This document shows, one piece after another, positions 4,122 through 21,634 of a stretch of DNA of 64,000 nucleotides. This stretch comes from Methylocystis sp. (GTDB taxonomy: Bacteria; Pseudomonadota; Alphaproteobacteria; Rhizobiales; Beijerinckiaceae): positions 1-64,000 of the forward strand of contig NZ_JAKFWS010000083.1 in the NCBI RefSeq assembly GCF_021731785.1, in the 5' to 3' direction. A program made the position numbers and the translations under genes. Position 1 is the first letter of the stretch. Every line of letters starts with the position of its first letter. The notes under the pieces were generated by a model that had not been told where the DNA came from, did not search any database, and was given only the letters and a program-made list of their open reading frames with translations.

Positions 4122-4922
4122 ATGCTCTTCCTGCGCTCGCTCGTTTTTCAGATTCTGTTTTTCCTGAACATGTTCGGGCTGATGATCATTTGGCTGCCGG
4201 CGATGCCGATGCGGCGCCAGATCAATCAGGAGCTCGGGCGCACTTGGGGGCGCGCCAATCTCTGGCTGCTCGACAAAATCTGCGGACTGAAGATCGATTG
4301 GCGGGGACTCGAAAACATCCCGAAAGGAGCGGTGATCGTCGCTTGCAAGCACCAGTCGATCTGGGAAACCTTCGTCCTGCCGATCAAATTTCCCGACTTC
4401 AGCTACATCTTGAAGCACGAGCTGATCTGGCTGCCTTTTTTCGGTTGGTATCTGCTGGCCGCCGAGCAGATCGCCATCGATCGCGCCAAAGGCGGCAAGC
4501 TCATGCCGCAGCTGATCGCCAAATCGAAGAAAATCTTCACACAGGGACGTCAGCTCTTCATTTTCCCTGAAGGCACCCGCCGTCCGGCCGGAGCGCCGCC
4601 GCAATACAGATTCGGCGTCGCCCAGCTTTACGCCGCGACCGACACGCCGGTGTTGCCGGTTGCGGTGAATTCGGGGCTCTTTTGGCCGCGCCGGTCGTTC
4701 ATCGTCCGGCCGGGAACGGTGGTGATCGAATTCCTGCCGCTGATCGCGCCAGGAATGGTGGCGCGCGATTTTTTCAATCGGCTGACGGGGGAGATCGAGG
4801 AAACGTCCAATCGGCTGATCGATGAGGCGGTGGCGAAGGACCCGTCGCTCGCGGCGATCGTTGAAAAGGGTCGCGCGAAAGAGGCGACCGCGCGAATGGT
4901 GAAGGAGGCGCCGGAAAGTTGA
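4122..4922 (+). CDS. plsC: 1-acyl-sn-glycerol-3-phosphate acyltransferase (PlsC-like)
   Basis: Transfers an acyl chain to lysophosphatidate at the inner membrane during phospholipid synthesis. The called 266-residue protein has an N-terminal membrane helix (LFLRSLVFQILFFLNMFGLMIIWL), the acyltransferase box as KHQSIWE, where the usual HX4D is HX4E, and the second box FPEGTR. The ORF track opens at 3891, but the extra 77 residues are arginine-rich and unlike the family, so ATG 4122 is used. HX4E with an adjacent WETF is, from memory, common in alphaproteobacterial members, so it should be active. Confidence 0.85.
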   Translation: MLFLRSLVFQILFFLNMFGLMIIWLPAMPMRRQINQELGRTWGRANLWLLDKICGLKIDWRGLENIPKGAVIVACKHQSIWETFVLPIKFPDFSYILKHELIWLPFFGWYLLAAEQIAIDRAKGGKLMPQLIAKSKKIFTQGRQLFIFPEGTRRPAGAPPQYRFGVAQLYAATDTPVLPVAVNSGLFWPRRSFIVRPGTVVIEFLPLIAPGMVARDFFNRLTGEIEETSNRLIDEAVAKDPSLAAIVEKGRAKEATARMVKEAPES

Positions 4923-15304: not shown

Positions 15305-15724
15305 TCAGATCGGATCCCAAAGGCCGGTGGCTTTGTCGAACTTATACGCGAGGGCTTTCTTCAGCAGTTCCTTCGTCGTATTGAGCGTCAGCCAGGTCTT
15401 GTTGTTCTTCTGGGTGATGGTGATCGCGGAGACCGGAATCGCAATATGCTTAACGCCCAGCCCCAGGAATCCGCCGACGTTCAGCATCACCGCATTGATC
15501 GAGCCGTCAGCCGAAAACAGCATGTCGGCGATCGTGCCGAGCTTCTTTTCGTTGGGATCGTAAACCGGCTGCTTGTACCACGCGGAGACCACCGAACCAT
15601 AGACCGGTAGCCGTTCGAGCGGCACGATGACCATGGTTTCGGTTTGGGCTTGTTGCGCGCCGGCCGGCAGCGCCGCGCAGGCGACAAGGGCCAGCGAGGC
15701 TGCGAAGACCACATGTTTCAGCAT
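15305..15724 (-). CDS. Secreted PRC-barrel domain protein 2
   Basis: A 139-residue paralogue of its neighbours with signal peptide MLKHVVFAASLALVACAALPAGA. PRC-barrel core: PVYDPNEKKLGTIADMLFSADGSINAVMLNVGGFLGLGVKHIAIPV. It shares the VSAWYKxPVYD segment with protein 3, showing that 2 and 3 are the closest pair. The 150-base gaps between the three genes suggest separate transcripts rather than tight operon coupling. Function unknown. Confidence 0.85.
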   Translation of the reverse strand: MLKHVVFAASLALVACAALPAGAQQAQTETMVIVPLERLPVYGSVVSAWYKQPVYDPNEKKLGTIADMLFSADGSINAVMLNVGGFLGLGVKHIAIPVSAITITQKNNKTWLTLNTTKELLKKALAYKFDKATGLWDPI

Positions 15725-15799
15725 GAAAAAATCCTCTTTGACAAAGCGCCTGACGCAACGCGGAAAACGACCTCAGCGAACCCTTCGCCGCGGCGTTTG

Positions 15800-16216
15800 C
15801 TACATCTGCTTCCAGGCATGTTCCTTCGCGTCATATTTGTAGCCGGTGGCCTTCTTCACGACGTCCTTCGTCGTATTGATGGTCAACCAGCTTTTGTTGT
15901 TCTTCTCGGTGATGGTGATCGATTCCGCCGGAATGGCGACATGCTTGGCGCCAATGCCGAGAAAGCCGCCGACATCGAGCATGACGGCATTGATCTCGCC
16001 GCCGGAAAACAGCATGTCGGTAATCACGCCGACTTTCTTCTCATTGGTGTCGTAAACCGGCTTTTTGTACCAGGCGGAAACGAGCGAGCCATAGCGCGGC
16101 AACGCCTCCATGGGCACGACGATCTTGCTTCCCGGCGCGGCCGTCTCGGCGAAGACGGGCTGCGCCACCGCCATGGCCACGCCCAAAGAAAGCGCAACGA
16201 GCAACGTTTTGTTCAT
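15800..16216 (-). CDS. Secreted PRC-barrel domain protein 3
   Basis: A 138-residue third copy: signal peptide MNKTLLVALSLGVAMAVAQPVFA, then SLVSAWYKKPVYDTNEKKVG and the barrel core INAVMLDVGGFLGIGAKHVAI. More than half of the residues match protein 2 by eye. The three genes evidently arose by tandem duplication, protein 1 being the most diverged (it carries an insert with TGGAAMGRPDFLTTLPQ before the barrel). Confidence 0.85.
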   Translation of the reverse strand: MNKTLLVALSLGVAMAVAQPVFAETAAPGSKIVVPMEALPRYGSLVSAWYKKPVYDTNEKKVGVITDMLFSGGEINAVMLDVGGFLGIGAKHVAIPAESITITEKNNKSWLTINTTKDVVKKATGYKYDAKEHAWKQM

Positions 16217-17326: not shown

Positions 17327-17671
17327 CTAACCGTCCGTTGGCGCCAGCTTCGCCAGCGCGTCGAGATAAAGCGCGGGCGCTCCCGCAACGAAGATTGTTT
17401 TGACGCGGCTTGTCGCGCCGGCGCGGATCGAGACCGCGCTCTTGGGAACGCGCAGCACAGAGGCGATCAGCGCGATCAGCGCCTCATTCGCCCGGCCGTT
17501 CTCCGGCGCGACGCGCACCCGCGCCTTCAGCACGCTGCGACCATCGGCGAGCGCCTCGACGCCTTCGACCGCGTCGCGTCCGCCCTTAGGCGTCAGCCGC
17601 ACGTAAAGCGCGACGCCTCCCGACTCCGCCGCCCATGGGGAAGATGCTTTCTCCGCGCCTCCCTCACCCAA
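17327..17671 (-). CDS. DUF167 (YggU) family protein
   Basis: A 114-residue member of the small YggU/DUF167 family: ALYVRLTPKGGRDAVEGVE at the start of the domain and VRVAPENGRANEALIALIASVLRVPKSAVSIRAGATSRVKTI, the conserved GxANxxL and SGxxSRxK blocks. Function not established. It overlaps yggT by 8 bases and is followed 3 bases later by the mesaconyl-CoA hydratase gene. Confidence 0.9.
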   Translation of the reverse strand: MGEGGAEKASSPWAAESGGVALYVRLTPKGGRDAVEGVEALADGRSVLKARVRVAPENGRANEALIALIASVLRVPKSAVSIRAGATSRVKTIFVAGAPALYLDALAKLAPTDG

Positions 17672-17957
17672 ATGCGGCGCCGGCGCTGCTGGCGATGGCG
17701 TCGCGCAGGAACTGCATCAGCAGCAGCAGAATGAGCGGCGAAATGTCGAGGCCGCCGACGCTCGGCAGCACCGAGCGGATCGGTCCGAGCAGCGGTTCGG
17801 TCATGGCGTTCAGCCATTTCCAGATCGAATAGGCGGCGTTCGAGCGCATATTGATGACATCGAAAGCCGTCAGCCAGGACACGATCACCGTGGCGAGCAG
17901 AATCCACCAGTAAATATCGATGATCGTGAGAAGAAGTTTGACCATTGCGTAGGACAT
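17664..17957 (-). CDS. YggT family integral membrane protein
   Basis: A 97-residue membrane protein with two hydrophobic stretches (VKLLLTIIDIYWWILLATVIVSWL and ISPLILLLLMQFLRDAIA) around the family motif EPLLGPIRSVLPSVGGLDISP. The ORF track starts at 18119, but MSYAMVKLLL at 17957 is the family start. In E. coli YggT protects against osmotic shock when potassium uptake is missing; no role is proven here. Gene order yggT-yggU is conserved widely. Confidence 0.9.
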   Translation of the reverse strand: MSYAMVKLLLTIIDIYWWILLATVIVSWLTAFDVINMRSNAAYSIWKWLNAMTEPLLGPIRSVLPSVGGLDISPLILLLLMQFLRDAIASSAGAAFG

Positions 17958-18076
17958 GAGGCGAGTTCCAGCGGATGAAGCTGCCGACTGTCTAGCCTCC
18001 CCGCCGCGCCGCGGCAATCCTTGGCCGGGCCGCTCCCGTCGGTCCTGCATGGATCCACCGCCGGCGTGGCACGCCG

Positions 18077-21000
18077 TCAGAGCCCGGGCAGCAGCCGGTA
18101 ATCGAGCAGCGCCGTCCATCCGAGGCCGCCGATCGGCAAAAGCAGCGCGCGAATGGGCGGCTGTTGCGAAAGCGGCACGAACGAGCCTTCCCGCAGTCCA
18201 TCGACGAGTTTGAGCAGCGTTTCCAGCTGCGCGGCCTTCCTATCCGAACCCTCCAGCGCTTTGACCGCGACAAGCCTTTTCGTCAGACGTGTCTTTGCAG
18301 TCTCGCGGGCCTTTTCGGCATTGAAGCAAAGCGCCATAGCGCAGCCAAAGATAATAATGAAGCCTACGATTTGTGTTGCCAGAATTGGCACGCTCGACGC
18401 AAACTCCGCAAAAGCAGTGCTGCGGGACATGATCATCAAAGCAAAAATAGCAAAGGGAAAATAGATCAGTTTACTAATACAGTTTGTGCGGCTCGCTATG
18501 AAATTGAGGTCAATCCACTCGTCGATTAGTGGATCTTGAAGCTCGAGCTTTTTCTCGAAGGCGAGATGCGTTTCGGGCGGCCAGAGGGTCTTGTGCTTTC
18601 GTAAGGCGCTTACAAAGCGCAGGCAAAGCAATGTGGAATCCACGACCAAGAAAATCAGGATGAGCATTAGAAATACGACGGGAACCGTCACGTCGGAGTA
18701 CACTTTCCTCAGTTCGCCGCGCCAGGGCACGTTGGGCGTGCCGAAGATAAACGTCAGAAACGTAAATAGCATCAGCATCAAAACCACGTATACGGCTATG
18801 CGATACGTGCTTGGCCAAAGCGCACTTTTCTTCACATACGCATTCCAGATTTGCCTGATGTGAACTCTCCCGTTCTTGTCTTCCGTTTCGGGCAGATGAT
18901 AGCAAAGCATCCCCCATGTAATCGGAAACGATCCCCCCTGGGTACGAACGGACTTTTCGTCAGTCTTCCCAGTGGGATTTTCGCCGAAGAATCTGGCTTG
19001 AACCTGCGCAAGATTGTTCCGAAGCTCCCTTCGAGCATCGAAGATCAGGCAAAATGCGAGTATGGCGGCAATGACGCGCAGCGCGATCGACGGCCAGACG
19101 GATATGCCCTGAGTCCAAGCTATAGGCTCGCCCAATCCATGTTCCGTGGCCGCCTCAGCAAAGAAATCCCATCTCGCAATAACTCCGGCGCCAAGCACCA
19201 GTATCGCCGCGAGGCCAATGCAAGACGCACGAAGAAATGGAAATATCATTCTATTCCAATAGAAGGCCGAAACTACTGCAGTCAAAAGAGCAAGTATCCC
19301 AACAAGCCCGGCTGTGCTTTTTGGTGAAAGCTTAGTATATAGCGCGGGTATGGTTGGATGGATTTCATCGCTTGCCCGCTGCGCCTCTCCGCTCACTTCT
19401 ATTTTTGTGGGTAATGCGATCACTCCTCCGCGCCGATCAATCTCAAACATTCGTGGGTACGAAATCCCATCCCTGATTTTTTTGCGTAAGCCTCTGTTCT
19501 CTTTCGCATCTTCTTCTTGCGCCGCCAAACGGGCTGCGAGAAAAGCGGCTGTCTGGTACGTGGATCGAAATGGCGGGATGTCTTGCTGGAGCTCTTCTGA
19601 CAGCGTGGGTCCGTAGCTTGACGCGATGATCAGATTGCGGGTCCATTGGAGGTCCTCCTGACCAGCGAGCGCAGCGTCATAGTCGGTCGTGAAAAAAACC
19701 GCCTCGGGAAACAGCGGTCTAAGCGCGCGCAGGACGAGTAGCTTGTCGAATACATCATTGCCCAACACCCCAATCGCCGCTATGCCTTCCTCGCCTTGGG
19801 CTCGGAGATCATTATCCTTCTCTTTGAGGCTCGCCGCCAACCTGCGCAGATAATCGAATTGGTCCTGCCCAAAAGGACGCTCAAGCGCTTTAGTGTCCTC
19901 TCGAGCCTTCAAACTCTCGTTCGCGCCGTTCTTGTCCGCGTTTTCGAATTTTGACTTCCCGCCCGTGCTGGTTGGGGGCAGCATGCCATCGAGGCCCCGA
20001 TGATAGGTTCTCGTGTAAATCCACGCTGGCGGCCCATTCCTTGCAAATTCTTCCAGACACTTCTGAGTATCCTTGCCGAACACACGCGGACATTGGAACT
20101 CTCGAGCGAGAGCTTGTATCATGGCGCGTCCATATAGCGTGTCACGATCTGATATCAATACGATCTGCTGTTCCTTGCGTGCATTGAGAAATCCAGCCGA
20201 GCCGGGGTTTACGCCTCTTTGATTCAATTCGGCCGTTATAGCCCGCGCTAAGGAATCGTCCTGCCCATTGGTACGGAAGACCCGCTCAGGAATGTTCTTG
20301 ATCCCGAGCTGTTCGTCGCTCACTGTCGCGCCAAATACGTAGAACTGAGCGTCATCAGATCTTCCATCTTTCTCTGAAGGGTAAGTTAGGGGCGACAATG
20401 ACGCAGTCCTTGTTCTGCTTCGAACGGGGGTCGGCGCCTTTAGCGCTTCTGGCTTACGCACTTTCGCGATGGCGATCTGCCGAAGAATGCCGGAAGAGTA
20501 TGGGCCCAAGACTTGGTAACTCATCGCGGCGCATTGGGTGGCGCTTGCTGATGCGCAAAGCATCGTCTTAAGAGCCAATATCCTTTGCAACGGGTCACTC
20601 GTATCGGACAGCACGTCCTCATCGATCCATAAAAGAAGTATCCGCCTCGATTTTTGTGTCTCGTGATCAAACCATTCATAGGGAATGGCGACCGGAAAGC
20701 CGTTCATCTCATGGTCGCGAGGTCGGAAGTAGCCCATATGCTGCTCGCTACGCGGCTCATAGCCTTCGAGATGCAGCCCGCTGAGCACGGCATACCGGAG
20801 TCGACGACGCGTTTCGCTGTCCTCGAAATAGGAGGCGCCTGGCGCAGTTACGGCGATGATGCGCGTGCCGCCGACTTCGGCGCGCAATTTGCCGCCTTCA
20901 TCGACGAACGGCGGACGACAATGTAGCGGAATCGTCAGAACTTTCCTTGTCCAGGCGTCCTCGCATTCCTTCCTCTCTTCAGGGTCTACTTTCTTGATTT

Positions 21001-21214
21001 GGCGCGCGATGGTATCAAAGGGATCCTGCCAGAGCCGCGCCTCCACGTCCTCTGAGTGAAATTTCTCTTCTATCCGGGATTCCATTGGTGGCGGGCGTAA
21101 TACGGTAAACGGCGCCTGCTGCGCATAAAAGTATGCGCCTGTAGCGAAAAGAGCGACGACGATTGCGCTGTTCGAGCCAATGCCTCCAGAGGCTTTTTTC
21201 TCATCGTCAGACAT
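18077..21214 (-). CDS. Large multi-pass membrane protein with receptor-like region, unknown function
   Basis: A 1045-residue protein I do not recognise by name. One membrane helix lies near residues 14-34; residues about 40-650 are soluble; then about seven helices follow (TAGLVGILALLTAVVSAFYW, CIGLAAILVLGAGVIA, IALRVIAAILAFCLIF, AVYVVLMLMLFTFLTFIF, VPVVFLMLILIFLVV, LIYFPFAIFALMIM, ILATQIVGFIIIFGCAMALC) and a cytosolic tail. Inside the soluble part IVLISDRDTLYGRAMIQAL and AAIGVLGNDVFDKLLVLRAL, with VFFTTDYDAAL, recall the two lobes of type I periplasmic binding proteins. Base composition looks more AT-rich than the neighbours, suggesting transfer. No partner gene lies beside it. Confidence 0.85.
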   Translation of the reverse strand: MSDDEKKASGGIGSNSAIVVALFATGAYFYAQQAPFTVLRPPPMESRIEEKFHSEDVEARLWQDPFDTIARQIKKVDPEERKECEDAWTRKVLTIPLHCRPPFVDEGGKLRAEVGGTRIIAVTAPGASYFEDSETRRRLRYAVLSGLHLEGYEPRSEQHMGYFRPRDHEMNGFPVAIPYEWFDHETQKSRRILLLWIDEDVLSDTSDPLQRILALKTMLCASASATQCAAMSYQVLGPYSSGILRQIAIAKVRKPEALKAPTPVRSRTRTASLSPLTYPSEKDGRSDDAQFYVFGATVSDEQLGIKNIPERVFRTNGQDDSLARAITAELNQRGVNPGSAGFLNARKEQQIVLISDRDTLYGRAMIQALAREFQCPRVFGKDTQKCLEEFARNGPPAWIYTRTYHRGLDGMLPPTSTGGKSKFENADKNGANESLKAREDTKALERPFGQDQFDYLRRLAASLKEKDNDLRAQGEEGIAAIGVLGNDVFDKLLVLRALRPLFPEAVFFTTDYDAALAGQEDLQWTRNLIIASSYGPTLSEELQQDIPPFRSTYQTAAFLAARLAAQEEDAKENRGLRKKIRDGISYPRMFEIDRRGGVIALPTKIEVSGEAQRASDEIHPTIPALYTKLSPKSTAGLVGILALLTAVVSAFYWNRMIFPFLRASCIGLAAILVLGAGVIARWDFFAEAATEHGLGEPIAWTQGISVWPSIALRVIAAILAFCLIFDARRELRNNLAQVQARFFGENPTGKTDEKSVRTQGGSFPITWGMLCYHLPETEDKNGRVHIRQIWNAYVKKSALWPSTYRIAVYVVLMLMLFTFLTFIFGTPNVPWRGELRKVYSDVTVPVVFLMLILIFLVVDSTLLCLRFVSALRKHKTLWPPETHLAFEKKLELQDPLIDEWIDLNFIASRTNCISKLIYFPFAIFALMIMSRSTAFAEFASSVPILATQIVGFIIIFGCAMALCFNAEKARETAKTRLTKRLVAVKALEGSDRKAAQLETLLKLVDGLREGSFVPLSQQPPIRALLLPIGGLGWTALLDYRLLPGL

Positions 21215-21558
21215 AGCCGTACTCCAAAATCACTTTTGCGCCTTCGCAGCGCCAACATCAGAAAGAGGGTGCCACGCCGCGCAGCGACTGGCATTCGATA
21301 GGCCAAACGCCCCTATTAAAATTCGCAAGCATCTCGGCGCTTGCGTAAACCATAATGCTCAAGCAACGAGTTTGGCTTTTTTTTATCAGCCAATACCTAT
21401 TACCAATACCTAGCGTTGGCTTCGCATTAACGACGACCCGCGCCCAACGTATTATTATGCGGCAAGAATTTCCCATGGCAAGCGTAGGCTGCAGTTCGGC
21501 CGCGAGGCCAAATGCAATTGACAGGAAATCGCCCCCCGTGTACCCCACGCGCCGGAGC
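21215..21558. other. Intergenic interval with no recognised feature
   Basis: About 345 bases between the start of the large membrane-protein gene and tRNA-Ala. ORF 21258-21548 (minus) has no recognisable family and no good ribosome site, so it is not called. The promoter of the 1045-residue gene must lie here; I see no convincing operator, repeat or att-like copy of the tRNA. Confidence 0.5.
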
Positions 21559-21634
21559 GGGGCTGTAGCTCAGATGGGAGAGCGCTGCAATCGCACTGCA
21601 GAGGTCGGGGGTTCGAATCCCCCCAGCTCCACCA
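21559..21634 (+). tRNA. tRNA-Ala (anticodon CGC)
   Basis: A 76-base cloverleaf with encoded CCA: acceptor GGGGCTG pairs with CAGCTCC, D-arm GCTC/GAGC, anticodon stem CTGCA/TGCAG with loop ATCGCAC (anticodon CGC, reading the alanine codon GCG), and T-arm GGGGG-TTCGAAT-CCCCC. The ORF spanning it is an artefact. Confidence 0.95.

Follow-up and report, generated by a model that had tools for sequence, protein, structure and literature searches.

The window analysed here, a stretch of 64,000 nucleotides of Methylocystis sp. (contig NZ_JAKFWS010000083.1), contains a single ORF standing alone between a tRNA-Ala(CGC) gene and a gene that we take, from the reading of its translation, to be yggT (Table 1). 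The ORF starts with ATG and is free of internal stops. Its G+C content is 54.1%, compared with 62.3% for the window, and its GC3 is 0.60, compared with 0.75 in the MaoC-like gene beyond yggT. The orthologues are likewise low (GC3 of 0.56-0.65 versus 0.78-0.84 for their MaoC genes); in the most distant one, L024, the values are 0.78 and 0.88. A preliminary description of this region had reported a 1045-residue ORF of lower apparent G+C content, lying alone between yggT and a tRNA with no partner enzyme next to it. The ORF proved exact, the other points agree with the present data, and the last is also true of most homologues. The dN/dS ratio between the gene and its orthologue in Methylocystis suflitae NLS-7 (L021) is about 0.09, which indicates purifying selection and therefore a real gene. 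The motif TTGCCA-N16-CATAAT is a candidate promoter, as judged from its sequence. The window also carries two tandem secreted PRC-barrel-like paralogues (15305-16216), and relatives have a third copy further on.

Table 1. Features of the locus and of the encoded protein (window coordinates)
Feature	Position	Strand	Remarks
Whole gene, single ORF	18077..21214	-	1045 codons; purifying selection
tRNA-Ala(CGC)	21559-21634	+	genus-wide fixed left border of the locus
yggT (presumed)	about 17664-17960	-	fixed right border of the locus
Candidate promoter TTGCCA-N16-CATAAT	21454..21481	-	about 240 nt 5' of the ATG; also in L021
N-terminal anchor helix (GSNSAIVVALFATGAYFYA)	21122..21178	-	about residues 13-31; hydropathy and alignment
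Family signature RP...ARLWQDPF	21017..21097	-	residues 40-66
Predicted periplasmic ligand-binding-like domain	19415..20869	-	about residues 116-600; charge distribution and profile comparison
Lobe I core aligning with Peripla_BP_6	20081..20656	-	residues 187-378
Presumed lobe II	19415..19870	-	residues 449-600; conservation
Seven transmembrane helices	18329..19318	-	residues 633-962; hydropathy and positive-inside loops in relatives
Predicted cytosolic tail	18080..18328	-	residues 963-1045; conserved GSFVPLSQQP..RALLLPIGGLGW
Species-conserved 3' end	18080..18208	-	exchange boundary about 130 nt before the stop codon

Searches of Pfam, NCBIfam and PADLOC with the gene product and its homologues gave no family match, and a PDB sequence search returned matches at chance level only, in line with the protein having been called uncharacterised. 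Scans of HMM libraries revealed no catalytic domain in the protein, and domain scans found no cytosolic signalling module in its loops or tail. Profile and whole-genome searches place it in an undescribed family that is sparse in Pseudomonadota, with members in Methylocystis, Methylosinus and their relatives, a Nitrosomonas-like genome and others. Orthologues at the same locus were found in Methylocystis genomes; G012 has one homologue, 33% identical, at another locus. Full-length homologues occur in other genera of the same taxonomic family (two copies in G552, and G599, G575, G574 and G542), and profile searches detected distant members elsewhere in Pseudomonadota (G1051, members of family f219, and G1378). 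The three identical amoA-type copies of G1051 suggest an ammonia oxidiser such as Nitrosomonas. No homologue was present in 288 other genomes drawn evenly across the class, and no relative in the viral contigs and phages searched. Among plasmids the sole relative was a truncated copy of the N-terminal part on the Methylosinus plasmid pMSC49b; searches with core and distant queries yielded nothing else of note. This copy (L034:15001-15459; Methylosinus sp. C49, accession no. NZ_AP022334.1) comprises the first ~140-160 codons of a homologue, is 98% identical to the G542 gene and has a recombinase gene and a Fic gene nearby; it is a broken copy on a mobilizable plasmid. The homologue of G1378 (L133:3183-5417), whose frame stops after the soluble domain, seems to have lost its C-terminal half.

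We also considered a link to methane/ammonia monooxygenase. A gene of the AMO family (AMO/pMMO subunit A) is present in 7 of the 12 homologue-bearing genomes tested (G000, G012, G552, G599, G575, G542 and G1051) and absent from the other five (four genomes of family f219 and G574). Because some homologue-bearing genomes lack such a gene, taxonomy may account for the co-occurrence.

Nearly all full-length members share a common plan, comprised of an N-terminal anchor helix, a soluble domain, seven transmembrane (TM) helices and a tail. The anchor is one hydrophobic segment (residues ~11-31) of nearly all members with a complete N-terminus; in the window protein it scores just under the cut-off, whereas it is called in nearly all of the others. 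In an alignment of 18 rows of family members (A3), the columns R40, P41, R60, W62, Q63, D64 and P65 are nearly invariant. The signatures of A3 are RP...ARLWQDPF, VLAVxVPGxPYxED.E.RRR.RYAVLSGL, PYEWF...LLLWID(E/D), IIGPxSS, RTIxxDDxLA..I..EL..R, LISEWDTxYGR, Y.RGxDG, G..Q.DYLRRL, IGVLGSDxxDKLL.LRAL...FP.A.FFTTDxD, WTRN..VAS, FR..YQT and, at the C-terminus, GxFxPxSxQP. The soluble part spans ~570-690 residues across members (800 in L077). In the window protein its lobe I core contains the motifs ILLLWIDED, GPYSS, FRTNGQDD and LISDRDTLYGR, and the presumed lobe II, which is the most conserved stretch of the family, contains QFDYLRRLA, IGVLGNDVFDKLL, FFTTDYD, RNL and FRSTYQT.

Two of the loops on one side of the membrane (43-61 and 55-130 residues in the closer members) carry 6-11 and 10-23 K/R residues, respectively, and the tail (~83 residues, longer in L052 and L025) carries 9-16, compared with 0-5 in the short loops of the opposite side. 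Since the positive-inside rule places such loops within the cell, the soluble part is predicted to be periplasmic and the tail cytosolic. The same pattern of charges and helices (1 + 7) is found in most relatives down to 30% identity; L077 has additional helices and L076 a different helix spacing. The L077 homologue (L077:7281-11318) also has a K/E-rich, coiled-coil-like insert of ~280 residues that separates the anchor helix from the binding domain. AlphaFold2, run with a two-row alignment (window and L021), gave a pLDDT of 32 for the soluble part and 48 for the TM part, values too low for assigning a fold.

A Pfam scan of 14 members at E values up to 10 gave no match to type I periplasmic binding proteins, and the PDB search contained one weak hmmsearch match of this kind (LacI/periplasmic binding protein 4kqc, E 0.93). 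In a profile-profile comparison, a Peripla_BP_6 alignment built from proteins of 13 genomes was compared by hhalign with the soluble part of A3. The best local alignment places family columns 191-367 onto binding-protein columns 76-205, with a score of 36.5-37.9 for lobe I (P about 1e-3) and with the 'GP-SS' motif, the R...D segment and 'DT-YG' in register. The controls scored 12.5 (reversed), at most 18.3 (columns shuffled) and at most 24.4 (blocks of 20 columns shuffled; 60 shuffles), while type II binding proteins gave 13.0 and the family's own TM part 14.9. The eight more distant rows alone yielded 33.9 and the alphaproteobacterial rows alone 34.7. The probability reported by hhalign itself, computed without secondary structure, is 14-26%, and the case depends on the controls. 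Lobe II alone scored 12.1, at chance level; its best match, PPFRSTYQTAAFLA on the P...A...YxAv stretch, falls at the expected place, with a score that is again that of chance.

It is likely, from these profiles, that the soluble part is a homologue of type I binding proteins, the similarity being significant for lobe I only. The family resembles these proteins (Peripla_BP_6, PF13458, LivJ-like; ANF_receptor fold) in the order of the lobe I motifs, in length scale and in predicted periplasmic placement. Unlike them, it is membrane-anchored and fused to seven helices, and it has long inserts, escapes detection by HMMER and matches in lobe II at chance level. The preliminary description had proposed two type I lobes followed by about seven helices and a cytosolic tail. 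Lobe I (residues ~187-378) stands above the controls and lobe II does not reach significance; seven hydrophobic helices do follow the soluble part, and the anchor helix had gone unmentioned. The receptor-like architecture that it perceived agrees with the conserved topology and charge pattern of the relatives and with the profile-profile similarity above controls.

The order of parts invites comparison with two known groups of receptors. The 7TMR-DISM receptors of bacteria, e.g. RgsP, RetS and LadS (PMC6107284), also have a periplasmic domain followed by seven helices. The helices of the present family are, however, unrelated to theirs by profile: no member matched 7TMR-DISM_7TM (PF07695) by hmmscan, and the hhalign score of the TM part, 14.6, lies within the shuffled range (mean 14.3, maximum 19.6), which rules out such an assignment. 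Moreover, no DISMED, kinase, GGDEF, EAL or PAS domain was found. In eukaryotic class C GPCRs the Venus flytrap has been linked to binding proteins (PMC2670285), and the family is like them, by analogy, in the order and orientation of a flytrap and seven helices. The charge pattern agrees with an outside placement of the flytrap-like part, whose fold is itself putative. Differences from class C GPCRs are the extra N-terminal anchor helix, the lack of any detected sequence relation (Pfam scans, by which the helices were compared, gave no match to 7tm_3 up to an E value of 10) and, presumably, the lack of a G protein.

Methylocystis species carry strongly different alleles of this gene, or none, at the same chromosomal spot. 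Between the sister species L021 and L022 the flanks are 89-95% identical upstream and mostly 93-98% downstream, whereas identity falls to 53-77% in the gene, from about its start codon onwards, and recovers to 91-93% over the final ~130 nt. The dS between them is 0.17 for MaoC and 1.8 for the gene; a tenfold rise in dS is not what a higher rate of protein change would produce, and the allele is of other ancestry. In the gene tree L021 joins the window allele (100/100) and not L022, while the flank tree has both of them in one clade (92/96), separate from the window. The AU test rejected the grouping of L021 with L022 for the gene (p 1.9e-5) and that of the window with L021 for the flanks (p 1e-156). 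For L025 and L033, too, the two trees conflict across these clades. Such conflict indicates that alleles pass from one species to another, homologous exchange being the simplest means. The claim that the gene is unlike its neighbours thus holds in a stronger form, since interspecies swapping of the gene proceeds independently of them. Exchange can also act inside the gene, because dS between L026 and L027 is 0.06 in the TM half and 0.31 in the soluble half. Between most alleles the TM part diverges as much as the soluble part, and dN/dS values of 0.09-0.35 across alleles indicate that they are functional. We rejected integration of a mobile element at the tRNA, because the gene is located 5' of the tRNA, carries no recombinase and has ends that fit homologous exchange.

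We read 30 Methylocystis loci around yggT. The gene was present in 8 (two on broken contigs), 4 retained a deletion scar (G005, G016, G017 and G023), and in the remaining 18 the site was empty, with tRNA-Ala and yggT about 150-240 nt apart. The scars keep only the last part of the gene, about 37-103 recognisable codons, and in them the tRNA flank leads directly into codon ~941 or beyond; the alternative that these C-terminal matches are independent small proteins was rejected. Decayed copies resembling the candidate promoter remain in the empty sites of G004, G006 and G018, which points to loss and not original absence, and a segment resembling a promoter, which lies between the gene and yggT, is also retained in empty sites. 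At L142 (G023), ARAGORN called a tRNA-Pyl (4153-4228) within the UspA region, which is probably false.

The interpretation to which we give an even chance is that the gene, whose alleles are exchanged between Methylocystis species, encodes a periplasmic ligand receptor that has a seven-helix domain of no known class and works with a cytosolic partner encoded at an unlinked locus. The protein would be anchored in the inner membrane by its N-terminal helix, and in the periplasm some 500 residues would form a diverged, Venus-flytrap-like domain of type I that binds a small or peptide ligand. Lobe closure would be passed to the seven-helix bundle, and the conserved cytosolic loops (T-x-W-P, D..FI..RT) and tail (G-x-F-x-P....QP) may contact a partner encoded elsewhere. 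Homologous recombination exchanges the alleles, over a segment that reaches from close to the start codon to within ~130 nt of the stop codon, and deletion is frequent. Because the alleles are exchanged and so often lost, the recognised ligand or target probably differs between lineages; allele exchange suggests that what varies is recognition, of a ligand or of an attacker. The protein is probably receptor-like, and such diversity and loss would be expected if the recognised thing keeps changing. A more far-reaching version, to which we give a rather low probability, is that of a bacterial receptor family whose parts are ordered as in class C GPCRs (periplasmic flytrap, seven helices and cytosolic tail, with no enzyme domain). 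The protein would then be a recognition receptor for phage, competitor or kin signals, with a one-locus allele series, exchanged between species, under diversifying or frequency-dependent selection.

It appears unlikely that the protein is a transporter or ligand-gated channel, i.e. a binding protein fused to a pore of seven helices through which a solute is imported or released when the ligand binds. The combination of a binding protein and a helix bundle, with no signalling domain, would suit this function, as would the lack, in the window, of two-component or second-messenger output adjoining the gene. Yet no permease or channel family matched above chance in Pfam, NCBIfam or PDB, so that the channel proposed earlier is not supported; no ATPase adjoins the gene and, to our knowledge, the swapping of hyperdivergent alleles at one locus is rare among transporters.

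We consider it quite unlikely that the gene encodes a single-gene anti-phage or competition protein, whose periplasmic part would sense an invader or envelope damage and whose membrane part would kill or arrest the cell. Divergent alleles at a fixed site, presence/absence and frequent deletion fit this idea, and so does the distant homologue of L077 (L077:3701-13335; G1004). In this one case, the gene is fourth in a same-strand row encoding a Tle1-like hydrolase/phospholipase domain (PF09994), an unknown protein, a peptidoglycan-binding protein, the homologue and a PhoD-like phosphatase. The row may be an operon and gives a clue to a partner. However, the non-orthologous homologue loci have no common neighbour among the matches listed, and the neighbours look like ordinary chromosomal genes (presumably topA, lpxC-ftsZ, hemW, his genes and others, named from their translations except where Pfam was run). 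The survey of these neighbourhoods revealed no defence-island context, and no PADLOC model matched above chance (PDC-M05B over 20 residues in one member, E 0.027). No homologue was found in phages and viral contigs and, on plasmids, only a truncated one, and replacement is by homologous exchange, not with mobile elements. The defence role once suggested finds no direct support.

A neutral history, in which a dispensable gene in a recombination-prone spot has acquired old allele ancestry by chance, strikes us as distinctly improbable: repeated deletion and lower G+C content are compatible with it, and recombination alone can import divergent alleles, but dN/dS values of about 0.09-0.35 imply a function that is selected for, and the genes on both flanks are unaffected by allele divergence. 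Very improbable is an envelope protein used as a receptor by phages or competitors, whose exposed parts would diverge or be lost under attack: the allele swapping and the deletions in many species with undisturbed neighbours speak for it, but the predicted inner-membrane location, with the large domain in the periplasm and not at the cell surface, speaks against it, as does divergence that is, for most alleles, as great in the TM part as in the soluble part.

The periplasmic receptor that we favour would belong to a family of membrane proteins of ~1000-1350 residues without a Pfam, NCBIfam or PDB match, hosted by methane oxidisers, a Nitrosomonas-like ammonia oxidiser and other Pseudomonadota. 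Its architecture, a putative periplasmic binding-protein-like domain joined to an unclassified seven-helix domain, is testable. Allele swapping between fixed borders provides natural variants, comparable at one locus, for a ligand search, and the natural deletions are ready controls.
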